Positions 25,336-29,192 of a stretch of DNA of 64,000 bases are shown here, one piece after another. The notes below the pieces were generated by a model. The model saw only the letters and a list, made by a program, of their open reading frames with translations. It was not told the origin of the DNA and searched no databases. A program made the position numbers and the translations under genes. Position 1 is the stretch's first letter. Each line of letters opens with the position of its first letter. The stretch covers positions 372,001 through 436,000 of the forward strand of contig JAFTXY010000011.1 in assembly GCA_017461425.1 (NCBI GenBank). The letters are read 5' to 3'. The DNA comes from Candidatus Gastranaerophilales bacterium. Lineage in GTDB: Bacteria > Cyanobacteriota > Vampirovibrionia > Gastranaerophilales > Gastranaerophilaceae.

Positions 25336-28300
25336 ATGAGAATTAATGCTATCACCGGTTCGATTACAAATCAAAAAATAAATTATAAATATCAAAATCC
25401 AATTTCATTTACATCAGATAAAAATTCATCTTTTTTTGAAAAAGCAGTTGCTCTAAAGCCTAAATTTATACTTCCAAAACATCAAAAAAGATATATGGAT
25501 ATTCAAAGAGATATAACGCCTCGCACGAAAGAACAAATCAAAATGGCAGAGGATTTTGCAAGAAAATATCCTATCTATAAAAATGAAAAATCAAAATCAG
25601 GAATTATTACAGCACAGCATTTTTATCTTGCATTTTTAACTCAGCTTTATGAATTTTCAAAAGGAGTTCAAGATGGTTCTGTATCTTATGAAACAGAAGT
25701 TAGATATGTTTCTCCTTCGACAATGAGTTTAGGAATTTCACCAGATATGTGGAAAAAACCGCATGTTGAAAAACCTCAAAAAGTTTTAAAAGAGGAAATA
25801 GATTCCGTAACTAAGCAATTAGAAGAAAAATCTAAAAAAGGCGGATTTGTTTCATCGCTAGAAGCAGATGAGGATTTTGTGCAAGATATAATTACTGTTT
25901 TAAATGAAGATGTTGATTCAGAACAAGTAAAATCTGGCAAATCAAATCTTACAGATGCAACAGTTTTTAGAGCAATGGTCTTGTCAAGCAATAGGGAAAA
26001 CGTTAAGCAGGTTGTAAGTTTTTATCATAGATTAGCAATGGCCATGACTCAAATAAGCGGTAAAAATGAACAAGTAAATTTACCATTTTATGATGATGTT
26101 GCAAGAAAAGTGTATAAAAATCTTGATAGAAATTATAATGTTGTCGTTACTCATGAAACAACTGATAAAGAATCCCCAAGTCATTTAATAAATAGTCTAG
26201 TGAGTGTTTTTGAACAAGAAGATTTTTCTGGTTTTAAAAATATCAGACCCGAAAACACCAAATTAAAGATTTTTAACGATAAAATTGATTTCGTTAATAT
26301 GAAAGAAGAAATCAATGAATTAGAAAAAGATAAAGACACCAATTACATCATAGTCGTATCAGATTTACATGAGATGTTTAAAAGATCAGTTCTTAAATAT
26401 TCAGAAGCTGGACATCCGATGTATGATATAGAATTAATGAATAATGTGTTTGCAAGCAAAGCGCAAAACGTAAAAATGGTTCTTCTGGTTGGAAAAGATA
26501 ATTATTATAAACTTACATCTGCGGCGCTTGTTGCAGAAGTTTTACAAGATTTTCAAAATATTCAAATTCCACTGATGGATTCAAAAACTACAAAGCAACA
26601 ATTATTCCATTCAAAAACCTATGTGGAAGAACAAATTGGAATGAAAATAGATGACGAAGCTATAAATTCTGCTGTTGAACTTTTTGCTTCAGATAAAGAT
26701 TCAAAATATGATAAAACAATCAGATATTTAAAGAAAGTTGCTTCTTATTTTATCGAAGAAGAAAAACTAACAAAAGCGCATATTGAAGCTTATTGGGAAA
26801 GTTTACAAAAGCAAGATACAAATGTCTCAAATGGACCATATGATATTATTTTTGATACCAAAATGACTCTTGATGATATTATTGGCTCTCCAATGACTAA
26901 AAAACAAGCAGAACTTGTTGTATATGAAATAAAAAATAATCCTCAAACAAAAGGTTATATTTTATACAATGCACAAGGTTATGGTGGAGGTAGAACAAAT
27001 TGTGCAAAAGTAATAGCAGGTGAAGCTAAAATTCCTATGGTGTGTATAAATGCTGCTGATTTTGCCATAAGAGATTTAGATACCGTTGGTACAAATCCAA
27101 TGGAAGCAATAGATGTAAAAATTAAAAAATTGGTTGATACAATTAAAACGCAAGCCAAAGCAAATTCTAATAAAACGGCAATGCTTTATATTCAAAATTT
27201 TGATAATTTTGCATCAAATCCTTTGTATGGAATTTCATCAATTTATGAGCAACAAGCATTTTCAAAATTAGTTAAAGAAATGAAAAAATCAAGAGAAGAT
27301 AATTCATATAATATTATCGTTATGGGTTCTTCTGATATGCCTGAAACAATTAATGAAAATGTTTTAAGACCAGGTTTATTTATGGATGATTTAATAATTT
27401 ATCCTCCTGCAGGTGTTAATAATGTTATGGAGATTGCTAAAAAGCATATTGCAAAAAAAGGCTATAAATTATCTGGGCAAACCGAAGATGAAAATAATAA
27501 AATTTTAAAACATTTTGCAAATGTTATTATGGGTTCTGGGTATGTTGATATTGTGGATTTATTAGACAGAGCTAACTTATTAGCAAAAAAAGCAAATAAA
27601 AATGCTATTTCAATTGCAGAAATTAATGAAGCATATTTGATTAAAACTGCAGGCATGCCAGCAGAGTATGAAATGTCTGAAAGAGAAAAAGGATTAACAA
27701 TTCGTCATGAAGGCGGACATGCTCTCAACTTGCAATTTATGTACAATTTATTTAAAGAAGAAGGCGATTCAATAAGAATTCCTGATTCTATTGCAAACAT
27801 TGCGCTTGACCCAAGAGGGGATTATTTGGGTTGTGTTTATCATAATACATCTGAAGAAAACACTACAACAATGAATCTTGAAACAGTATTTTCAAATATA
27901 GTTTGTAGTTTTGGTGGAAATTCGGCAGAAGAGCTTTTCTATGGAATGGAAGGTTCGTATGGAATTTCTCAGGACTTAGAAAATGCTAATTATATGGCAA
28001 AAATTGCTGTTTTGCGTATGGGTTTAGGAACAAGAATGGATTATTTTATACCTGATTTTGATGAAAATGGTAATCCTATCTTAACTGCTGCAGACGAAGA
28101 AAATTATGAAAATGATGTAAAATCGTTTATATACAATGCCAAATATTTATCAGATGAAATCGTTGATTGTTATAGTGAATTTTTGAATGAATTTGCTAAA
28201 AAATATATTAATGATTTTGGTACTGGAAATTGTATTATAACAGGTTCTGATTTTGCAAAAATGCTTGCTGACTGGGAAGAAAGGCAATCTCAAGAAACAA

Positions 28301-28404
28301 AAGACAATATTGCTAAATTAAAACAAACCGCAAAAGCAATTATTGCTGCTCAAAAAGAGGGCGAAAAATATAATTGCGAACAAGATAATGAAACTAAAGT
28401 ATAA
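25336..28404 (+). CDS. Chimeric Clp-like/FtsH-like protein: degenerate AAA domains with intact M41 zinc protease
   Basis: This 1022-residue protein has no signal peptide or membrane helix. Residues about 60-250 resemble the helical Clp N-domain region. Residues about 265-485 follow a ClpA/B NBD1 layout, but the P-loop position reads THETTDKESP (272-281) and Walker B reads VVSDLH (near 342). Residues about 520-735 follow an FtsH AAA layout: AQGYGGGRTN (546-555) replaces the Walker A, LYIQNFDN (617-624) replaces hhhhDE, and VLRPGLF keeps only the first SRH arginine. The C-terminal M41 domain is intact: HEGGH (791-795) and the third zinc ligand D880 in GISQDLENAN. I chose ATG 25336, with GAGGA five bases upstream, over TTG 25309. 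It is likely an ATP-independent or partner-dependent metalloprotease. Confidence 0.8.
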   Translation: MRINAITGSITNQKINYKYQNPISFTSDKNSSFFEKAVALKPKFILPKHQKRYMDIQRDITPRTKEQIKMAEDFARKYPIYKNEKSKSGIITAQHFYLAFLTQLYEFSKGVQDGSVSYETEVRYVSPSTMSLGISPDMWKKPHVEKPQKVLKEEIDSVTKQLEEKSKKGGFVSSLEADEDFVQDIITVLNEDVDSEQVKSGKSNLTDATVFRAMVLSSNRENVKQVVSFYHRLAMAMTQISGKNEQVNLPFYDDVARKVYKNLDRNYNVVVTHETTDKESPSHLINSLVSVFEQEDFSGFKNIRPENTKLKIFNDKIDFVNMKEEINELEKDKDTNYIIVVSDLHEMFKRSVLKYSEAGHPMYDIELMNNVFASKAQNVKMVLLVGKDNYYKLTSAALVAEVLQDFQNIQIPLMDSKTTKQQLFHSKTYVEEQIGMKIDDEAINSAVELFASDKDSKYDKTIRYLKKVASYFIEEEKLTKAHIEAYWESLQKQDTNVSNGPYDIIFDTKMTLDDIIGSPMTKKQAELVVYEIKNNPQTKGYILYNAQGYGGGRTNCAKVIAGEAKIPMVCINAADFAIRDLDTVGTNPMEAIDVKIKKLVDTIKTQAKANSNKTAMLYIQNFDNFASNPLYGISSIYEQQAFSKLVKEMKKSREDNSYNIIVMGSSDMPETINENVLRPGLFMDDLIIYPPAGVNNVMEIAKKHIAKKGYKLSGQTEDENNKILKHFANVIMGSGYVDIVDLLDRANLLAKKANKNAISIAEINEAYLIKTAGMPAEYEMSEREKGLTIRHEGGHALNLQFMYNLFKEEGDSIRIPDSIANIALDPRGDYLGCVYHNTSEENTTTMNLETVFSNIVCSFGGNSAEELFYGMEGSYGISQDLENANYMAKIAVLRMGLGTRMDYFIPDFDENGNPILTAADEENYENDVKSFIYNAKYLSDEIVDCYSEFLNEFAKKYINDFGTGNCIITGSDFAKMLADWEERQSQETKDNIAKLKQTAKAIIAAQKEGEKYNCEQDNETKV

Positions 28405-28457: not shown

Positions 28458-29192
28458 ATGACATCAACAATAGCTTTGATTGGAAAATCTGGAAGTGGCA
28501 AAACAACAATAGCAAAAGCTTTTTTGAATTTAATAAAAAAGAATTTTCCAAATTCTTCAATTCTTTTAGTGGATAATGATTTAAGTTTAGAATTGTCTGA
28601 AAGTTTTGGCATTAAAACAAGAAATACAATATACGGAATAAAATCAGGAAAACATGAATATAAAACAGGAATTCCTGAGGGAATGTCTAAACAAGAATTT
28701 ATTGAATGGGCATTGGAGGATATTATTGTTGAAATAGATGATAATGTAGATATGATTGCATCTTGGTTTGTAACTCCAAAAGATTGTAAATGTATTTCAA
28801 CAAATTTAATGAGGGAATCGTTATCAAAATTAATAGATAGATATGATTTTGTTATTTTTGATTGTGAATTTGATTTAAAATATCTAAATTTATTGGTGGA
28901 TTATCCAATAAATGAGGCTATTATTGTTTCTCCTTGTAATGAATCTGAGATAGTTTTATCTTCAAAAATTGCAGATTTTTCTAAAAAATATGCAACCGAA
29001 GGGCAATTAAGAATACTTTTAAATAAAGTTAAAAAAGAAAAAATGAGTTCCGTAATGGATTTATTAAATACTTTGGAATTAGATTTATTGGGTATGATAG
29101 ATGAATATGATGAAATAGATTATGACGTAATCGCTAATAAATTAGAAGCATTATATCCAAGAATGAATTTGCCACAGATAGAAATGAATTGA
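28458..29192 (+). CDS. CooC/MinD-like P-loop ATPase
   Basis: This 244-residue SIMIBI-class NTPase starts with IALIGKSGSGKTTIAKAFL, a P-loop related to the deviant Walker A of CooC, ArsA and MinD but with SGSGKTT rather than KGGVGKTT. FVIFDCEFDLKYLN occupies the position of the switch II aspartate. IIVSPCNESEI and LRILLNKVKKEKM match the rest of the fold. CooC proteins load nickel into CO dehydrogenase. No such enzyme is in this window, so the client is unknown. AAAGGAG lies four bases before the ATG. The next gene, folD, begins 12 bases downstream, suggesting one transcript. Confidence 0.72.
   Translation: MTSTIALIGKSGSGKTTIAKAFLNLIKKNFPNSSILLVDNDLSLELSESFGIKTRNTIYGIKSGKHEYKTGIPEGMSKQEFIEWALEDIIVEIDDNVDMIASWFVTPKDCKCISTNLMRESLSKLIDRYDFVIFDCEFDLKYLNLLVDYPINEAIIVSPCNESEIVLSSKIADFSKKYATEGQLRILLNKVKKEKMSSVMDLLNTLELDLLGMIDEYDEIDYDVIANKLEALYPRMNLPQIEMN

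Follow-up and report, generated by a model that had tools for sequence, protein, structure and literature searches.

A soluble pseudo-AAA metalloprotease of Gastranaerophilales with a Clp-like half, an FtsH-like half and a conserved zinc site

A gene of a Candidatus Gastranaerophilales bacterium encodes a 1022-aa protein that is best named a pseudo-AAA metalloprotease. The protein derives from a fusion of the N-domain and first AAA domain (D1) of a Clp protein with FtsH. The ATP sites of both AAA domains are lost and the zinc site of the M41 protease domain is retained in all 38 orthologues that were aligned. The gene lies on the + strand of the window, the whole stretch of 64,000 nucleotides that was analyzed, with its ATG at position 25336 and its stop codon ending at 28404; a TTG start 27 bases upstream of this ATG is also possible. 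An earlier note on this DNA had quoted a set of motifs from the translated frame, and all of them are present: THETTDKESP (from residue 272), VVSDLH (340), AQGYGGGRTN (546), LYIQNFDN (617), HEGGH (791) and Asp880. The features of the gene are as follows.

25336 to 28404, + strand: whole coding sequence, 1022 aa, soluble, without any hydrophobic stretch resembling the membrane helices of FtsH
25336 to 25509, + strand: leader, residues 1-58, variable and of low complexity; many orthologues begin with M[KRI][IV]N/E.. and have an F-x-G/A motif near the end of the leader
25510 to 26010, + strand: Clp N-domain-like segment, residues 59-225, with an IxxxHxYLAxL pattern and an hhalign match
26011 to 26835, + strand: ClpB/ClpC D1-like AAA domain without Walker motifs, residues 226-500, from profile comparisons and AAA_lid_9 matches
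26149 to 26178, + strand: D1 Walker A place, THETTDKESP, residues 272-281, without a P-loop; no N-terminal half contains GxxxxGK[ST] (0/38 orthologues)
26353 to 26370, + strand: D1 Walker B place, VVSDLH, residues 340-345, from sequence and hhalign
26641 to 26745, + strand: D1 lid with Clp-type PDKAIDL-like motif, residues 436-470; YDKTIRYL in the window protein, YPDKAIxLL in many orthologues
26851 to 27435, + strand: FtsH-like AAA large domain with degenerate ATP site, residues 506-700, from Pfam, family profile and AlphaFold2 model
26971 to 27000, + strand: degenerate Walker A, AQGYGGGRTN, residues 546-555; Gly550, Gly552 and Arg553 (replacing Lys) invariant
27184 to 27207, + strand: degenerate Walker B, LYIQNFDN, residues 617-624, the catalytic Glu mostly replaced by Asn
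27319 to 27399, + strand: second region of homology, residues 662-688; of the two FtsH finger arginines, RPGLF has one and lacks the other, and the RPxRF pair is in no orthologue
27436 to 27669, + strand: lid of the FtsH-like AAA domain, residues 701-778, from sequence and AlphaFold2 model
27670 to 28050, + strand: M41 zinc-protease domain, residues 779-905, from Pfam and AlphaFold2 model
27706 to 27720, + strand: HEGGH with zinc ligands His791 and His795 and catalytic Glu792, 38/38 orthologues
27973 to 27975, + strand: Asp880, third zinc ligand, 38/38 orthologues
28051 to 28401, + strand: C-terminal extension, residues 906-1022, IxDxYxxFxxEF...F...LxxW, common to the soluble relatives of the order

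A leader similar to that of the window protein (approximately M[KRQ]I[SN]..., a polar stretch and S/T/N-F-[KTQ]-G) precedes both the pseudo-AAA family and unrelated proteins of the window genome (25336-25509 of the window; L134:6656-8074, L137:15799-16284, L138:7179-9770, L143:9772-13719 and L152:3097-3501). The count of a bare FxG, 23 of 382, was only slightly above the 3-5% found in protein bodies. The recurring leader may be a sorting signal or may be due to chance.

The relationship of the C-terminal half to FtsH is evident from profile searches. Pfam recognized an AAA domain (residues 550-682, 8e-10) and a Peptidase_M41 domain (780-930, 4e-12) in the window protein, and a family profile of 19 orthologues matched solved FtsH structures at E 9e-39 (profile positions 505-956, AAA plus M41). 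The NCBIfam FtsH model TIGR01241 matched the window protein at 1e-26 with 93.6 bits, which is below its curated cut-off of 600. An AlphaFold2 model of residues 500-1022 reached a pLDDT of 77 and a pTM of 0.66; the underlying alignment consisted of L002 plus five FtsH sequences taken from viral contigs, and these genuine FtsH sequences bias the model towards an FtsH-like fold. With VIA-align the model matched apo-FtsH (3kds) with a Z of 23.8, its AAA part matched the FtsH ATPase domain of T. thermophilus with a Z of 19.2 (4.4 Å over 235 residues), and the best Foldseek matches were complexes of FtsH, AFG3L2 and FtsHi. The model thus has a predicted AAA fold in the FtsH-like domain despite the missing ATP motifs, and a predicted intact M41 fold.

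Of the defining features of FtsH, the window protein has the AAA fold adjoining M41, as found by profile and model, and the HExxH motif and Asp ligand of M41. The remaining ones are missing. Neither Walker A (GxxxxGK[T/S]) nor Walker B (hhhhDE) occurs in any of the 38 aligned orthologues, both finger arginines of the second region of homology are found together in no orthologue, and an FVG-type pore loop is absent from the FtsH-like AAA domain of the family. Hydropathy analysis showed no N-terminal membrane helix in the window protein, the maximum Kyte-Doolittle-19 value being 1.16 as compared to 2.7-3.2 for canonical FtsH proteins of the same order. The protein had been described as soluble in the earlier note, and the lack of an FtsH-like hydrophobic stretch agrees with this.

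To compare the N-terminal half with Clp proteins, hhalign was run with the N-terminal halves of the pseudo-AAA family and its type II relatives (see below) as query and the order's own ClpB and ClpC as target. The match had a probability of 97.3% (E 1.7e-11, score 92) and was collinear over 356 columns, spanning the Clp N-domain and D1 up to the PDKAI lid motif. Thirty column-shuffled controls scored at most 18.5 and reversed family sequences 18-21. A D1 profile without any Clp sequence, used in a whole-genome search, found Clp-sized frames (mostly 810-890 aa, best 4e-11) in about 100 genomes beyond the family, and it found the window genome's own ClpC locus (G000:C1:9368-9805) at 3e-8. The Pfam Clp lid model AAA_lid_9 reached five of 19 family members (best 6e-4). 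The AlphaFold2 model of D1 was low in confidence (pLDDT 58) and its structural matches to Clp involve some circularity, Clp sequences having been part of its alignment. The Clp assignment is therefore based on hhalign and the Clp-free D1 profile, and the D1 model is not relied on.

Homology to the N-domain and D1 of Hsp100 proteins (ClpA/B/C) was thus found. The Walker motifs expected in D1 are missing in the 38 orthologues, and there is no second Clp AAA domain (D2), the second AAA domain being FtsH-like. The window protein should be classed neither as FtsH nor as Clp, since each has defining features that the protein was found to lack. The chimera of Clp D1, FtsH AAA and M41 that had been proposed from the sequence is supported by the profiles, the structure model and the family comparison, and the analysis adds a Clp N-domain-like segment at the N-terminus. 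Structure prediction, which had been suggested as a check, gave an FtsH-like AAA fold in the model of residues 500-1022, and gave a poor model for D1.

The loss of ATP motifs is a property of the whole family. The FtsH-like Walker A reads G-x-G-R, with R for K, in all 38 distinct orthologues, and the loop preceding it varies in length. At the position of the Walker B Glu there is Asn in 36 orthologues, Lys in one, His in one and Glu in none; the Walker B Asp is present in a single orthologue out of 38. A P-loop in the Clp half was found in none of the 38. No variation occurs at the zinc-site residues H791, E792, H795 and D880 or at R827, the PRG arginine (38/38). The earlier note had proposed that both ATP sites are lost and the zinc site is kept, and that homologues be compared for this; the comparison confirmed that the Walker positions are always degenerate next to invariant zinc-site residues. 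Substitutions private to one strain would have spoken against the proposal, and the Walker loss is common to all 38 aligned orthologues.

Sequence conservation is not restricted to the protease domain. Columns with at least 95% identity number 27 of 190 in the dead FtsH-like AAA domain and 24 of 125 in M41, in a count that included one genome twice. Whole-gene dN/dS values (Nei-Gojobori) were 0.05-0.19 in seven computable close pairs, with two further pairs being saturated. For the dead FtsH-like AAA domain the values were 0.01-0.10 in the same seven pairs, in most of them the lowest of the domains, and the domain is therefore kept for something. All domains of the family are under purifying selection. 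With dN/dS far below 1, the family represents the maintained evolution of a pseudo-enzyme, not decay. Degenerate motifs at both ATP sites could also be found in a decaying or misread FtsH, either a pseudogene or an active ATPase with unusual motifs; we consider this very improbable in view of full-length frames in more than 100 genomes, strong purifying selection and the same substitutions in all orthologues. A pseudogene or a strain-private mutation is ruled out by these observations.

Gastranaerophilales (Vampirovibrionia) are non-photosynthetic gut relatives of Cyanobacteria, and the host bacteria are little studied and probably live in the gut. Of 383 genomes sampled within the order, 117 had an orthologue; the count takes matches with an E of 1e-100 or lower, omits the G037 type II protein and includes a few frames cut by contig ends. 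Many genera of a single large family are represented, and another family contributes two genomes. Outside the order, a phylum sample of 292 genomes with 2-3 candidates scored per genome gave no orthologue at E <= 1e-60. In a class sample searched with the type II profile (2-3 candidates scored per genome), FtsH-type proteins were the only ones found outside the order among the matches listed.

The genome context was examined for clues to origin and function. A virus-borne gene was rejected: no relative of the family was found in viral contigs, and in phage records the AAA-M41 half had only weak matches of an FtsH- or AAA-like kind. Clustering of the neighbors at 41 loci showed that, besides the gene itself, no protein family is common to more than six loci. 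In the window, the neighbors are glgC- and folD-like genes (by eye) and genes for a CbiA/ParA-like ATPase, alanine racemase and GcvT (Pfam). An operon with a substrate was rejected since there are no conserved neighbors and those in the window suggest no joint pathway. PADLOC gave a weak mad3 match alone (6e-4), which was read as a shared AAA fold, and a defense system was dismissed as well. The small CbiA/ParA-like ATPase lies at 28458-29192, 54 bases downstream of the gene (Pfam AAA_31, 1e-8), and is not a conserved neighbor elsewhere.

In the window assembly (1.45 Mb, 77.7% complete) the frame 25336-28404 was the sole M41 gene found. The missing canonical FtsH is probably due to an assembly gap, since a canonical FtsH-sized match is present in nearly all relatives searched and the assembly has this level of completeness. 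In the genus of the window, with nearly all candidates scored, no further AAA-M41 protein was found besides membrane FtsH.

The same order harbors other soluble proteins related to the C-terminal half. Type I proteins (725-770 aa; L128:5305-7506, L129:3985-6162, L130:4660-6900 and L131:5940-8249) lack the Clp half and the membrane helix, have intact AAA and M41 motifs and carry the same C-terminal extension; they form a second unusual soluble FtsH branch. Type II proteins (830-900 aa; L123, L125, L126 and L132) combine a dead Clp D1 with an intact FtsH-like AAA domain and the same extension. The C-terminal extension is thus common to both types and the window family, type II also sharing the dead Clp D1, whereas both types differ from the family in that the FtsH-like Walker A and B motifs are intact.

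A half-decayed group (L124:2212-4914, L127:4313-6955 and L026) has kept GSGK and has DD or ND at Walker B; the catalytic Glu, the finger pair and the pore loop are lost. In the tree this group is sister to the pseudo-AAA family, with a support of 1.0 for the joint clade and 0.74 for family monophyly. Since there are apparent intermediates within one order, the order of loss can be read by comparing relatives. The simplest reading of these sequences is a stepwise loss in which the ATP site of Clp D1 would have gone first, followed by the pore loop, fingers and Walker B of the FtsH-like domain, with the Walker A lysine last. In one genome (G046), a half-decayed copy occurs beside a type II copy that is live (L125).

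On balance, we lean towards a soluble M41 metalloprotease in which both AAA layers are purely structural and which forms rings and acts without ATP on unfolded or special substrates. The protomers would assemble into a ring via the M41 and FtsH-like AAA domains, and the protease domain of FtsH is known to form hexamers by itself (PMC9020784). The dead FtsH-like AAA ring would then be a static gate or scaffold, and the Clp N/D1 part would form a layer for docking or for selecting substrates. Entry of unfolded chains, flexible tails or one dedicated substrate would involve no ATP-driven pulling, and cutting would take place at the zinc site. The loss of the pore loop fits a lack of threading, beyond a merely slow ATPase. 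The nearest working model and a measured precedent is LonC, a hexameric, ATPase-dead protease whose AAA-like module is non-functional and which needs no ATP to degrade unfolded proteins (PMC3391209).

The main rival is that the window protein is a subunit of mixed rings with canonical membrane FtsH or live soluble relatives, adding protease sites or an adaptor layer to partners that thread with ATP. Heteromeric rings are common in the FtsH family (PMC8197885, PMC9020784), the M41 domain, which is involved in partner choice, is well conserved, and among the relatives searched canonical FtsH usually co-occurs with the gene. The arrangement would resemble that of FtsHi subunits with the roles reversed. 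It is nevertheless unlikely: the window protein has no membrane anchor and about 30% identity to canonical FtsH over the shared part, the finger pair and pore loop needed by neighboring subunits are gone, and many gene-bearing genomes lack live soluble relatives. Since the search of the window's genus, with nearly all candidates scored, found no other AAA-M41 protein besides membrane-bound FtsH, there is no close soluble partner to power the window protein. For this reason, of the two roles raised in the earlier note, a cutter that does not unfold is favored over a partner of another AAA protein.

The altered P-loop might also bind a nucleotide or other ligand without hydrolysis and act as an on/off sensor for the protease, which would be compatible with the ATP-independent protease outlined above. 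In AAA proteins, tight ATP binding would normally be abolished by Arg for Lys when the Walker B acids are also lost and the loop is variable. The same changes in the window family, including a loop of variable length, argue against tight ATP binding here, and we regard a sensor as improbable even though Gly550, Gly552 and Arg553 are invariant in 38/38 orthologues and dN/dS is lowest in the FtsH-like AAA domain for most pairs. The LonC hexamer binds six nucleotides yet has no ATPase activity (PMC3391209), and by analogy the invariant GxGR may still bind a ligand, perhaps a nucleotide. A more speculative proposal, which we put forward tentatively, is an M41 ring that is capped by a pair of dead AAA rings, each of a different AAA family, and works free of ATP, with the rebuilt GxGR pocket as a new ligand or protein site that opens the gate; this would be a new branch of self-compartmentalizing proteases.

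FtsH is a textbook motor-dependent protease. The present family suggests a protease cut loose from its motor by evolution: in more than 100 genomes the motor is off and the blade is kept, with both under selection. It thereby offers a natural test of the roles of AAA domains besides burning ATP. The earlier note was not aware of any described family with such a domain order, and no description of the family or its domain order was found in the open literature, subscription journals being mostly outside this search.

The window protein shares with FtsH the homologous AAA and M41 domains, the HExxH and Asp ligands and, by prediction, the fold, but it lacks the membrane helices, Walker A and B, the finger pair and the FVG-type pore loop, and has an added Clp N/D1 half and C-terminal extension. 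With ClpA, ClpB and ClpC (Hsp100) it shares the collinear N-domain and D1 homology including the PDKAI lid motif, whereas the Walker motifs and D2 are missing and the protease is fused rather than docking on ClpP. The chloroplast FtsHi pseudo-proteases and Ycf2 are likewise FtsH relatives with one of two activities lost. FtsHi proteins keep the AAA domain and lose the zinc site, which makes them a mirror image of the window family, where the reverse is found (PMC8197885). The likeness to LonC, an analogy and not membership, lies in an AAA-derived module without ATP motifs that is joined to an intact protease domain; the protease of LonC is of the Lon Ser/Lys type instead of an M41 zinc protease, and LonC has no Clp half. 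In effect, the window protein would be to FtsH what LonC is to Lon.
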